From NCBI GenBank assembly GCA_029582155.1, contig CM055909.1, positions 46,750,412 to 46,814,411 of the forward strand: 64,000 bases of DNA. Direction: 5' to 3'. The notes beneath the pieces were generated by a model. It did no database searches and was not told where the DNA came from. It saw only the letters and a list, made by a program, of their open reading frames with translations. How positions within the stretch are numbered: position 1 is the stretch's first letter; each line of letters starts with the position of its first letter. The stretch is from Panopea generosa. Its lineage: Eukaryota > Mollusca > Bivalvia > Adapedonta > Hiatellidae. Positions 15,409-51,798 of this stretch are shown here, piece after piece. The position numbers and the translations under genes are program-made.

Positions 15409-17369
15409 GTTGCCAATATACCGATGGCAAAGTAATGTTTTCTATAACTGTATTAAAGTCATTATTATTAGAACACAGTTGCACCGGTGCGATGGCAAAA
15501 TAATGTTTTCTATAACGGTATTAAAGTCATCAGCATTAGAACACAGTTGCACCGGTGCGATGGCAAAGTAATGTTTTGTATAACTGTATTAAAGTCATCA
15601 ATATTAGAACACATTGCACCGGTGCGATGGCACAGTAATGTTTTCTATAACTGTATTAAAGTCATCAACAATAGAACACAGTTGCACCGGTGCGATGGCA
15701 AAGTAATGTTTTCTATAACTGTATTAAAGTCATCAACATTAGAACACAGTTGCACCGGTGCGATGGCAAAGTAATTTTTTTCTATAACAGTATTAAAGTC
15801 ATCAACATTAGAACACAATTCACCGGTGCGATGGCAAAGTAATGTTTTCTATAACTGTATTTAAGTCATCAACATTAGAACACAGTTGCACCGGTGTGAT
15901 GGCAAAGTAATGTTTTCTATAACTGTATTAAAGTCATCAACATTAAAACACAGTTGTACCGGTGCGATGGCACAGTAATGTTTTCTATAACGGTATTAAA
16001 GTCATCAACATTAAAACACAGTTGCACCGGTGCGATGGCACAGTAATAATTTCTATAACTGTATTAAAGTCATCAATATTAAAACACAGTTGCACCGGTG
16101 CGATGGCAAAGTATTTTTTTTCTATAACTGTATAAAAGTCATCAACAATAGAACACAGTTGCACCGGTGCGATGGCAAAGTAATTTTTTTCTATAACTGT
16201 ATAAAAGTCATCAACAATAGAACACAGTTGCACCGGTGCGATGGCAAAGTAATGTTTTCTATAACTGTATAAAAGTCATCAACATTAGAACACAGTTGCA
16301 CCGGTGCGATGGCAAATTAATGTTTTCTATAACTGTATTAAAGTCATCAACAATAGAACACAGTTGCACCTGTGCGATGGCAAAGTCATGTTTTCTATAA
16401 CTGTATTAAAGTCATCAACATTAGAACACAATTGCATCGGTGCGATGGCAAAGTAATGTTTTCTATAACTGTATTAAAGTCATCAACATTAGAACACAGT
16501 TGCACCGGTGCGATGGCAAAGTAATGTTTTCTATAACTGTATTAAAGTCATCAACATTAGAACACAGTTGCACCGGTGCGATGGCAAAGTAATGTTTTCT
16601 ATAACAGTATTAAAGTCATCAACATTAGAACACAGTTGCACCGGTGCGATGGCAAAGTAATGTTTTCTATAACTGTATTAAAGTCATCAACAATAGAACA
16701 CAGTTGCACCGGTGCGATGGCAAAGTAATGTTTTCCATAACTGTATTAAAGTCATCAACAATAGAACACAGTTGCATCAGTGCGATGGCAAAATAATGTT
16801 TTCTATAACTGTATTAAAGTCATCAACAATAGAACACAGTTGCACCTGTGCGATGGGAAAGTCATGTTTTCTATAACTGTATTAAAGTCATCAACAATAG
16901 AACACAGTTGCATCGGTGCGATGGCAAAGTAATGTTTTCTATAACTGTATTAAAGTCATCAACAATAGAACACAGTTGCATCGGTGCGATGGCAAAGTAA
17001 TGTTTTCTATAACTGTATTAAAGTCATCAACAATAGAACACAGTTGCATCGGTGCGATCGCAAAGTAATGTTTTCTATAACTGTATTAAAGTCATCAACA
17101 TTAGAACACAGTTGCATCGGTGCGATGGCAAAGTAATGTTTTCTATAACTGTATTAAAGTCATCAACAATAGAACACAGTTGCACTGGTGCGATGGCAAA
17201 GTAATGTTTCCTATAACTGTATTAAAGTCATCAACATTAGAACACAGTTGCACCGGTGCGATGGCAAAGTAATGTTTTCTATAACTGTATTAAAGTCATC
17301 AACATTAGAACACAGTTGCACCGGTGCGATGGCAAAGTAATGTTTTCTATAACTGTATTAAAGTCATCA
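15409..17369. repeat. 68-bp satellite-like array, about 29 copies
   Basis: The unit runs GTTGCACCGGTGCGATGGCA, AAGTAATGTTTTCTATAACT, GTATTAAAGTCATCAACATT, AGAACACA. Copies are highly alike; recurrent variants are CAACATT/CAACAAT and CACCGG/CATCGG. Each unit carries the palindrome CACCGGTG. Open frames on both strands result from low internal stop density, and 68 is not a multiple of three, so no repeat protein is implied. Divergent half-units mark the 5' edge; the 3' edge is abrupt. Confidence 0.95.
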
Positions 17370-29814: not shown

Positions 29815-30420
29815 TGTACTTCAAATAGACAGAGTGTAAACAGTTGTCGTCCCTGGTGATGTATTCTGACATAACATTCCTAAGATCTAATCTACTACAT
29901 GTCTCATAAAACTATGAATTCAGTATTTATTGCTATTCTTGTGTTTACTTCAAACAGTGTAAATAATAATTATTTCAATTATATAAAACTCTGAACTCCG
30001 TATTTATTCCTAGTCTTGTGTTAAACGTCAAACAGTGTAGAAAGTTATCATTACTGTGAATTTCGTATTTGTTTTTGGATTGATTTATTGAATATTTGAC
30101 GTCGTTTTTATGCCATCGATGGCTAACAGACGACCAGTTAACCTAACCACCGTTTCCTGGGATCCTGAAAGGTTAACCAGTACTCGAGCACACCCCATCT
30201 CCACAAGTAACTGATAACTCTCCCACTTGAATCAGCGGTGAGAGACGATCGATAATGAGACACAGTTTCGTATATCAATCATCACGGAGACTGTTGCCGG
30301 CCGGGGATTCGAACTAACGACCCTGGATTGATAGTCAGACGCGTAACCGACTGAGCTAATCGGGCCCGTATTTGTTTCACATTTATCTTACCCTTTGTAA
30401 CTATCTACTTCAGCCACAGT
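29815..30420 (+). repeat. Degenerate tandem copies of the TM3-exon 3' splice junction
   Basis: CAGTGTAA-type cores preceded by TACTTCA or GTCAAA occur at 29833, 29956 and 30034 and again at the true junction (30418). Intron-side strings such as TTTATTGCTATTCTTGTGTT and CGTATTTATTCCTAGTCTTG recur with them. The SINE at 30075-30366 was inserted later, with the 11-bp target duplication CGTATTTGTTT. Subtracting its 303 bp leaves spacings of 123, 78 and 81 bp. The copies are worn, so confidence is moderate. Confidence 0.5.
30075..30366 (-). repeat. tRNA-derived SINE, family 1, with target-site duplication
   Basis: On the minus strand the head is GCCCGATTAGCTCAGTCGGT, then CGTTAGTTCGAATCCCCGGC. 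The body includes CACCGCTGATTCAAGTGGGA, CTCGAGTACTGGTTAACC and GATGGCATAAAAACGACG, ending in CAATAAATCAAT. The direct repeat CGTATTTGTTT at 30064-30074 and 30367-30377 marks the insertion. It lies about 40 bp upstream of the TM3 exon. Confidence 0.85.
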
Positions 30421-30564
30421 GTAAGCTGCTGTCTTTCTTGAAGATTTACTTCACCAGTACCAACTACGTTTGGATGTTTTGTGAAGGACTATACCTTTAC
30501 CGACTTATTGTCAACGCATTCTCACCACCAAAACGTTTACTCCTGTTTTACATACTCGGCTGGG
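30414..30564 (+). CDS. GPCR exon: TM3, ICL2 and start of TM4
   Basis: It encodes PQCKLLSFLKIYF, TSTNYVWMFCEGLYLY, RLIVNAFSPPKRLLLFY and ILGWG, ending in phase 1 at a perfect donor GTAAGT. The Cys at residue 3 is the TM3 cysteine that pairs with ECL2. The Glu of CEGLYL is the class B Glu of the ionic-lock motif. The start is ambiguous between CTTCAG|CCACAG (30414) and CCACAG|TGTAAG (30420); both keep the frame and differ by Pro-Gln. The preceding exon must end in phase 0. It follows degenerate junction copies and a SINE. Confidence 0.93.
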
Positions 30565-45977: not shown

Positions 45978-46044
45978 TTGTTGGTCTATAAGTTTTGGCG
46001 ATAAGGAATGGATCATATACACTCCTAACCTTACCTGTCTGGTG
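45978..46044 (+). CDS. GPCR exon: second extracellular loop
   Basis: 67 nt. AG from the previous exon plus T gives Ser, then CWSISFGDKEWIIYTPNLTC and LV, ending in phase 0 at GTG|GTAAGT. Acceptor TTATTTTACAG. The Cys-Trp pair is the ECL2 hallmark: the Cys is the partner of the TM3 cysteine. GDKEWII aligns naturally with the GNKKWII of PTH receptors. Confidence 0.93.
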
Positions 46045-46685: not shown

Positions 46686-47067
46686 GGGTACCGTCAATTG
46701 AATAATAAGTTATATTTCAAATTTCACCATCATTCACCCTTAGATGATTTTGTTTTACATAAATATAAAAATAGTTGCTTCTGTTGCCAAAAAGGTTGAA
46801 AACGGTGTTGTATACTTTGAATGTTTGTAATCGGTTTAGAGTTAGACATTCGTTATCGATATTTCATAAAAGAAGTTACAAGAAGAGAACCTGATTTCTT
46901 TTCAAATAACATATGTGCAAAACCATTTTCTTTAATACAGCACCAGCCGTTCATTATTGACGTCACATAAGCCACGTGACCAGGATAGATATATCGTTAT
47001 ATCACGTTATGAACCATTGTATGGTACTCAGCTGATAAAGCTCATCGTATTTATGCTTAACCTGATC

Positions 47068-47629
47068 TATTCTATGCAAAATATATTACCTCTGTTCTAT
47101 TTCATGTAAACTACGTTATATCATCTGTTCTGGCAAACATGTATTCCGTCCTCTGTTCTATTCCAGAAAAAAAATACATATAATCTACGTTCTATTAAAG
47201 GCAAATATATTACCTCTGTTCTGTTTCATGCACACGTACATATATCATGCATTCTGTTTCAGGCAAACATAGATATATCATCCGTTTTATTCCAGGCAAA
47301 CGTACATATATCATCTGTTTTATCCTAGGCAAACATACATATATCACCTGTTCTATTCCAGGCAAACGTACATATATCACCTGTTTTATTCCAGGCAAAC
47401 GTACAGATATCACCTGTTTTATTCCAGGCATACGTATATATATATATCACCCGTTCTATCCCAGGCAAACATACATATATCATCTGTTCTATTTCAGGCA
47501 AACGTACATATATCACCTGTTCTATCTCAGGCAAACTTACATATATCATCTGTTCTATTCCAAGCAAACAAACATATATCATCTGTTCTATTCCAGGCAA
47601 ACATACATATATCATATGTTCTATTCCAG
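47068..47629 (+). repeat. 33-bp array of amplified TM5-exon 3' splice junctions
   Basis: Units begin (first G of GCAAAC) at 47230, 47263, 47296, 47329, 47362, 47395, 47428, 47465, 47498, 47531, 47564 and 47597. The true exon begins one period later at 47630. A typical unit is GCAAACATACATATATCATC plus TGTTCTATTCCAG: a polypyrimidine-AG acceptor followed by exon-like bases. Spacing is exactly 33 bp except one 37-bp unit at 47428. Older, more worn copies (GCAAAATATATTACCTCTG, GGCAAATATATTACCTCTG) extend back to about 47070 and resemble the exon start GCAAACATATATTTCCTCTG even more closely. Confidence 0.92.
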
Positions 47630-47712
47630 GCAAACATATATTTCCTCTGCAGTATACTCAGGATCCTACTTACACAACTACAAGTGCATCCGAATGAACC
47701 CAGTAACTTCCG
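47630..47712 (+). CDS. GPCR exon: TM5 and third intracellular loop
   Basis: 83 nt, phase 0 in and phase 2 out: ANIYFLCSILRILLTQL, QVHPNEPSNF, plus CG. The acceptor is TTCTATTCCAG|GCAAAC, the same sequence that is tandemly repeated upstream. The donor is CCG|GTTTGT, weaker than the gene's other donors. The pattern NIYFLCSILRILLTQL corresponds to N-xFLxNIxRxLxTKL of the family. The usual TM5 Asn before I-x-R is Ser here and the Lys of TKL is Gln. The reading frame joins the next exon as R-KALKAT, which settles both ends. Confidence 0.92.
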
Positions 47713-48689: not shown

Positions 48690-49320
48690 ATTTAATTTCA
48701 GAAGAGCATTTAATGCGACATTTTGTCTGTTCCGCCAGTTCGTTTGACACGTTCATTTATTTCTACTAAATTTTCTGTCTAGCAATGTTAATTCTAGAAA
48801 GTTTTTAGGACCCATGTTACGACTAGGTAGACACGTTTTATTAATTTCTACTGAAATCTCTGTCTATGTTTTAGAAAGTATTTTAAGCCTATGTTACAAA
48901 TGATTCTATTCTAATGTTAGATTAGCAATTTATTTGAAATGAAACCTGTATTAGTATGTGTGTGTTGTTTTTTTTTAATTCACAAAAGCGTTAAAGGCCA
49001 TGTTAGAATCAAGGTATCAGTTGGATGATTTGTTTATTTATTTGAACTGAATATTGCACTGCCACGTGCTTGTTTTGGCTTTTTCAGAAAAGCATTAAAG
49101 GACACGTTAGAATAGATTTATCAGTTGGATGATTTGCTTATTTATTTGAACTGAATATTGCATTGGTACTTGGTGGTTTTGGCTATTTCAGAAAAGCATA
49201 AAGGTCGAGTTAGAATGGATTTATCAGTTGGAAGTTTTGTTTATTTATTTACACTGAATATTGCATTGCTACTTGGTGGTTTTGGCTATTTCAGAAAAGC
49301 ATTAAAGGCCTGATCCACCA
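48690..49320 (+). repeat. About 103-bp array of amplified TM6-exon 3' splice junctions
   Basis: Junction-like positions (first exon-like base) are 48702, 48798, 48875, 48984, 49088, 49192 and 49295. The best are TTTTTCAG|AAAAGCATTAAAGGACACG (49088), CTATTTCAG|AAAAGCATAAAGG (49192) and CTATTTCAG|AAAAGCATTAAAGGCC (49295), against the true TTGCAG|GAAAGCATTAAAGGCCACC at 49586. The rest of the unit (TATCAGTTGGATGATTTG, TTTATTTGAACTGAATATTG, ACTTGGTGGTTTTGGC) also repeats. The last spacing is 291 bp, which falls to about 110 bp once the 179-bp MITE and its TA duplication are removed. Confidence 0.85.
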
Positions 49321-49585: not shown

Positions 49586-49721
49586 GAAAGCATTAAAGGC
49601 CACCTTTGTACTGATACCTCTGTTTGGGGTGCAGCTTGTAGTGACGATATACAGGCCTCATCCATACTCACCGAGTTCTCTATATTACGAACGATTTTCA
49701 GAAATGATTTCTAACTCACAG
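49586..49721 (+). CDS. GPCR exon: TM6 and third extracellular loop
   Basis: 136 nt, phase 2 in and phase 0 out: (R)KALKATFVLIPLFGVQLV, VTIYRPHPYSPSSLY, YERFSEMISNSQ. Acceptor ATAATTGCAG|GAAAGC, donor TCACAG|GTAATG. KALKATFVLIPLFG is the class B TM6 signature, including the P-x-x-G kink. The IYRP stretch resembles the WRP of calcitonin-type receptors. Confidence 0.94.
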
Positions 49722-51756: not shown

Positions 51757-51798
51757 GGATTCTTCGTTGCGCTCATTTTCTGCCTGTGTAACGGCGAG
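51757..51798 (+). CDS. GPCR exon: TM7
   Basis: Exactly 42 nt, phase 0 on both sides: GFFVALIFCLCNGE. Acceptor GTTGTTTTACAG, donor GAG|GTAAGT. This is the small, highly conserved TM7 exon of class B receptors (G-F-F-V-A-x-x-x-C-x-x-N-G-E) and the strongest single piece of evidence for the family. Confidence 0.96.

Follow-up and report, generated by a model that had tools for sequence, protein, structure and literature searches.

The receptor gene and its TM5 junction

The window, by which we mean the whole 64,000-nucleotide stretch analysed here, is part of a 1.47-Gb genome in 39 contigs and carries a gene for a class B (secretin-type) G-protein-coupled receptor (PF00002, 7tm_2). The TM3 exon scores 50.6 bits and the joined ECL2, TM5 and TM6 exons 47.1 bits against a curated profile cut-off of 20.6. 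The gene model is partial: the receptor's TM4 exon and the exons upstream of TM3 were looked for and not found. The TM5 exon is flanked by introns of about 1.6 and 1.9 kb, and a 33-bp tandem array occupies the end of the upstream one (Table 1). Arrays with a period of 10 or more make up 13.6% of the window, where the tRNA search program ARAGORN found no tRNA.

Table 1. Exons, arrays and a sequence motif of the receptor gene, in window coordinates
Feature	Position	Strand	Remarks
TM3 exon	30414..30564	+	PF00002 positions 75-126; edges without tandem copies within 1.5 kb
ECL2 and TM5-start exon (CWSISFGDKEWIIYTPNLTCLV)	45978..46044	+	Donor GTAAGT; precedes the 47630 exon
Branch-point-like CTTAAC	47056..47061	+	By eye; just 5′ of the first degenerate copy
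Five degenerate 33-bp copies (47076, 47106, 47133, 47168, 47201)	47066..47229	+	Exact AG at 47201 only
Twelve regular 33-bp junction copies (47230-47597)	47230..47629	+	Exact AG in 10/12
TM5 exon, 83 nt	47630..47712	+	Phase 0 in, phase 2 out; donor GTTTGT
Second array, 104 bp × 3.2	48979..49310	+	Units: TTTCAG and the TM6 exon start (AAAGCATTAAAGG and variants)
TM6 exon (KALKATFVLIPLFG...ISNSQ)	49586..49721	+	
TM7 exon (GFFVALIFCLCNGE)	51757..51798	+	By-eye assignment; edges without tandem copies within 1.5 kb

By sequence, PTH1R is the top solved relative of the receptor (PDB alignment). The residues ANIYFLCSILR of the 47630 exon align with the class B TM5 (LNFILFINIVR in PTH1R) and are also kept in the corresponding exon of a paralog. 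Because they match PTH1R and recur in the paralog, we take the start of the 47630 exon to be older than the array. At the junction itself, LV|AN aligns with IV|LN of PTH1R, which places the junction inside TM5, given the helix limits assumed here; an earlier, sequence-only reading had put it between ECL2 and TM5.

Anatomy of the 33-bp array

We delimited the repeat units by wrap-around, unit-by-unit alignment. The array (47066-47629; TRF reports 14.7 copies at 47152-47638) continues in register into the TM5 exon. There are 17 copies upstream, with junctions at 47076, 47106, 47133, 47168, 47201, 47230, 47263, 47296, 47329, 47362, 47395, 47428, 47465, 47498, 47531, 47564 and 47597; one exact 33-bp period after the last of these, the exon at 47630 continues the series. 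The sequence-only reading had counted twelve units and placed the exon one period after the last of them; its twelve are the regular copies of Table 1, and both its coordinates and the step from 47597 to 47630 are correct. Each unit joins ~11 nt of intron end to ~20 nt from the start of the TM5 exon. The exact junction AG is found in 11 of the 17 upstream copies, is shifted by 1 nt at 47168 and is missing at 47076, 47106, 47133, 47230 and 47564, the last of which had already been described as lacking it.

The copies diverge more toward the upstream end of the array. The motif CTTAAC just beyond that end, which looks branch-point-like by the consensus, is possibly the ancestral branch site that the array left behind. 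The exon's first 22 nt align to the array with a score of 28, which was reached by none of 5000 dinucleotide shuffles (best 27) and by one of 2095 control 22-mers taken after other AGs of the window. Together, the alignment to the class B TM5 and the paralog's exon support the earlier proposal that the amplified unit spans the intron-exon border and is in part exon-derived. The second array, at 104 bp per unit, ends 275 nt 5′ of the TM6 exon and is not contiguous with it; no sequence among 5000 shuffles or 2095 controls equalled the match of the TM6 exon start to this array.

Tandem arrays are prone to mis-assembly, and the 33-bp array could itself be such an artefact. We regard this as barely credible, as many substitutions distinguish the copies and arrays of differing periods are carried by several loci.

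Predicted consequences of using the upstream acceptors

We spliced each array junction in silico to the neighbouring exons. Four upstream acceptors (47465, 47498, 47531 and 47597) stay in an open frame into TM6, while a stop is reached from 7 of the 11 AG-bearing upstream acceptors. The five units from 47465 to 47597 do lie in the receptor frame, as previously claimed; copies 47230 to 47428 are shifted out of it by an indel of +4 nt in unit 47428. That the in-frame units are open is correct and has little meaning, because the 33-bp unit contains no stop in any of its three frames and shuffling the unit leaves a given frame open in half of 20000 trials. An open frame thus does not show that an acceptor is used, and the same two observations rule out selection for one.

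We scored acceptors with a model built from 58 predicted acceptors of the same genome (median 10.1, lower quartile 7.9). The acceptor at 47630 scores 9.7 and ranks fifth of 18 in its gene. Two of the in-frame upstream acceptors exceed the median (47498 at 10.8 and 47597 at 10.7), and the other two fall below the lower quartile (47531 at 7.8 and 47465 at 5.7).

The sequence-only reading had proposed that choice among these acceptors varies receptor length without a frameshift. Under a length-variable splice choice, receptors would be made with 33, 99, 132 or 165 extra nt in TM5, equivalent to 11, 33, 44 or 55 residues. The open frames into TM6, the above-median scores of two of the four acceptors and the overall upstream preference of human alternative 3′ sites (PMC9225289, in the part drawn upon) are all in keeping with this proposal, and an 11-residue insert amounts to roughly three helical turns, so that the helix face would be approximately kept. 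The inserts would sit inside TM5, however, and the alignment of LV|AN with IV|LN of PTH1R implies that 11 to 55 additional residues would enter the helix midway. The unit's composition leaves every frame open in any case, most upstream acceptors lead to stops and such arrays are not bound to the TM5 exon.

A paralog with a probably independent array at the same junction

The nearest paralog (L057, C16:42.31 Mb) is 77% identical over the TM6 exon and has an array at the same TM5 junction (C16:42315417-42317538), composed of 63-bp units with 33 upstream copies. Within each unit, intron sequence accounts for ~20 nt and exon sequence for ~43 nt. Because these breakpoints differ from those of the 33-bp unit with its ~20 nt of exon, we favour separate origins for the two arrays. 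Common ancestry, which would call for a much reworked common array, was considered and held unlikely, since the duplicated segments differ. The TM5 exons of three other loci (L041, L043 and L044) were checked for copies and none were seen. The 63-bp array also shows a higher-order period of 125 bp. Downstream of the TM5 exon of the paralog, at about C16:42317638-42317720, lies what by eye seems to be a single diverged repeat of that exon's 3′ half together with the adjacent beginning of the intron.

The AG is kept in 31 of the paralog's 33 upstream copies, and in all 31 of these a stop follows 6 to 34 codons past the junction. The paralog's real acceptor ranks only 23rd of 34 by score. The real site is not marked by local acceptor strength, in the receptor gene or in the paralog. 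The 31 stops make the proposed splice-length code less likely; considering them together with the 7 of 11 in the receptor gene and the mid-TM5 position of the inserts, we do not uphold a meaningful, frame-preserving choice of length and judge it improbable. What stands of the sequence-only reading as a whole is the structure and its border-spanning duplication.

The same stops suggest a different role, in which upstream acceptors would divert transcripts into unproductive mRNA and the copy number would set the receptor dose. Early stops from every AG-bearing copy of the paralog and from 7 of 11 in the receptor gene would fit such a poison-acceptor rheostat, as would the acceptor strength that many copies retain. 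Against it, an intron read as an exon is expected to hit stops anyway, and the donor and myosin arrays described below are similar with no logic in common. We consider such a rheostat very improbable.

In a related version, acceptors of variable copy number would compete with 47630 and yield mostly unproductive mRNA together with a few receptors in which TM5 is longer by whole 11-residue turns. We hold this to be highly unlikely; if it were true, an unstable minisatellite would tune receptor dose between individuals, and the paralog's array with its other breakpoints would be convergent. One feature of the paralog does count against a neutral reading: the ACAG|GCAAAT columns of its 63-bp array appear, by inspection, less variable than most, which could be a hint of retained acceptor function. 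Two donor arrays, set out likewise, had no low-variability pattern at GT.

Arrays at other exon edges of the genome

Both boundary types are affected by arrays elsewhere in the genome. Two class B paralogs carry donor-side arrays, of 46 bp in L048 and 40 bp in L050, and further class B edges are crossed at the acceptor of L128 and the donors of L133 and L137. In myosin genes, arrays lie at the acceptors of L069 and L075 and the donors of L062, L066 and L076. Including the acceptor of L037, the crossed edges number seven donors and four acceptors among these loci, and the presence of such arrays in myosin genes rules out a feature private to one gene or family. The 17-exon class B set, in which the acceptors of L034, L036 and L037 and the donors of L048 and L050 are crossed, was kept out of the rate calculation since it contains the finding itself. 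CAG|GTAA occurs in most of the 46-bp units of L048 (C16:12.59 Mb), so that a donor-like sequence directly follows an acceptor-like one, an arrangement resembling recursive splice sites.

We determined how often arrays cross exon edges in exons chosen blind to arrays. The samples comprised 20 of 81 myosin matches, hand-picked by score and spacing; 20 TM3 exons from 138 PF00002 matches, also hand-picked, with the receptor gene's own TM3 exon excluded (it has no copies); and 45 of 47 CCT matches (two long uninterrupted ones excluded), from which two L114 exons representing a whole-exon duplication were then dropped, leaving 43. Edges were predicted by a simple splice-site score and by frame. Some edges are doubtful, such as the donors of exons near CCT gene ends (L110 and the second of L091). 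The script-placed acceptors of L062 and L080 are off, the likely true ones being likewise uncrossed, and the L062 donor was called ~11 nt off, with a repeat copy covering both candidates.

Arrays crossed 5 of 40 edges of the myosin-head exons, 3 of 40 of the class B TM3 exons and 0 of 86 of the CCT exons, for a total of 8 of 166 edges in 83 exons. As a comparison, intronic points located 100-340 nt from the exon edges were covered by arrays in 70 of 520 cases for myosin, 42 of 280 for TM3 and 36 of 1093 for CCT (sums by hand from tables; low-complexity matches were dropped from the cover profile and kept in the crossing count). The intronic cover predicts ~14 crossed edges against the 8 observed, indicating that junctions are not favoured as array sites. 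An edge-independent check, which counts off-diagonal self matches overlapping the profile match, recovered the same loci (5/20 myosin, 0/43 CCT and 3/20 TM3 exons) and, in addition, the L114 pair.

The myosin and CCT edges differ significantly (5/40 versus 0/86; Fisher p = 0.0027), a difference that fits scarcer arrays in the CCT flanks. The absence of crossings among the 86 CCT edges also means that the phenomenon is not uniform, which counts against the mirage reading developed below.

These rates bear on whether minisatellites arise preferentially at splice junctions, with the junctions acting as mutational hot spots by way of, for example, R-loops or homeology of the intron end with exon positions +17 to +33. 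The exon stretch TCTGCAGTATACTCAGG does look similar to the intron end in the unit alignment, and the same junction carries arrays with different breakpoints in two paralogs, as a hot spot would predict. The crossing rates for myosin, CCT and TM3 edges, set against the intronic cover of each, speak against it, and we judge seeding at junctions to be distinctly improbable.

Comparison with mirages and related systems

In amphioxus, boundary-spanning tandem repeats have been named mirages (PMC3087553). According to the parts of that work drawn upon, the globin mirages affect both 5′ and 3′ boundaries and keep splice signals in many copies, not in all; their copy number varies between haplotypes, and RT-PCR suggested normal splicing. 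Further lancelet mirages occur in PGBD5, Adh and troponin C (PMC3902484, likewise in part). The TM5 array has a minisatellite unit length, exon sequence within its unit and partial AG retention. It thereby resembles the mirages of Adh3, BflGb6, BflGb9, troponin C and PGBD5, which are minisatellite-like copies of a boundary that keep AG or GT in many copies only and in which the authentic copy is the one joined to the full exon (PMC3087553, PMC3902484, as far as those portions go).

The differences concern host, copy number and kind of evidence. The host here is most likely a mollusc, to judge by myosin: six joined exons (314 aa) score 553.6-563 bits with eight distinct PDB sequences of scallop and squid myosins and 504.4 bits with the next best, a Myosin-7. 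We count 17 upstream copies of 33 bp and, in the paralog, 33 of 63 bp, whereas the BflGb6 mirage has 3-6 units, each of 150-160 bp; the units of the Adh3 mirage are 10-72 bp, again from the portions of the amphioxus work drawn upon. Splicing and length behaviour have been observed in amphioxus, whereas the array here is known from the genome sequence of one assembly. No earlier mollusc mirage was found in the open-licence literature. An abalone gene contains an intronic 27-bp minisatellite, with no splice junction mentioned in the part of the report consulted (PMC6905558), and intronic minisatellites are described in earthworm genes in the corresponding part of another (PMC12783039).

Human segmental duplications provide a second likeness, since internal tandem repeats at exon-intron boundaries there can supply new splice sites and introns, accounting for 27 intron modifications in the portion of the study used (PMC2812944). 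Those repeats are variable, occur in recent paralogs and altered introns in ways backed by transcripts, while the TM5 array is known from DNA alone. The TM5 array also shares with NAGNAG-type acceptors the presence of several in-frame AGs close to one exon. NAGNAG acceptors are tandem alternative sites at 3-nt spacing; the copies of the TM5 array are 33 nt apart and each carries its own pyrimidine tract.

A neutral mirage as the favoured explanation

Taken together, we consider it very likely that the TM5 array is a neutral mirage, a duplicated 3′ junction in a gene whose mRNA is normally spliced at 47630, rather than a system for varying TM5 length. The array would have arisen by duplication of ~11 nt of intron end and ~20 nt of exon start, followed by amplification 5′ of the TM5 exon. 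The copy joined to the whole exon would retain the coding role, and the far-upstream copies would have been free to decay, a decay that is visible in the alignment. The extra copies, being intronic, would be removed with the intron. More generally, minisatellites are dense in the introns, and boundary arrays may simply be those among them that chance to include an exon edge.

The acceptor in use is presumably 47630, selected as the one closest across the exon to the donor at 47712. In a human survey, splice sites nearest across the exon are favoured where introns are long, and alternative 3′ sites prefer upstream positions overall, a preference that exon definition lessens (PMC9225289, in part). 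If the mRNA normally uses 47630, the site nearest the donor, the decoys would be tolerated and the array would be neutral; its junction copies are probably harmless clutter passed over by the splicing machinery. Some leak to upstream acceptors is plausible, because human 3′ sites lean upstream overall (same part of PMC9225289); it might involve 47597 or 47465-47531 and give rare isoforms with an extended TM5.

In the literature covered, mirages are otherwise known from a few lancelet genes. The examples in class B receptor and myosin genes of a probable mollusc suggest that exon edges have no general protection against tandem duplication. These loci, where up to 34 near-identical acceptors compete and some decoys outscore the real one, are natural test objects for how splicing picks a site. 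Boundary arrays also supply starting material for new introns if these arise from mirages, as has been proposed.

Other repeats and gene copies

The window also contains a minisatellite of 68 bp × 28.6 copies with 94% matches at 15422-17369. A match on contig C7 (L003) was set aside, as by eye it looks like an unrelated array. At L114 (C5:34073738-34074942), two likely CCT last coding exons lie 367 bp apart with 76% identity and are possibly alternative terminal exons. On the same contig, at C5:32.07-32.72 Mb (L004 to L007), four uninterrupted class B receptor frames of 601-738 aa have near-equal scores and lie within 0.65 Mb, and they are probably recent gene copies.
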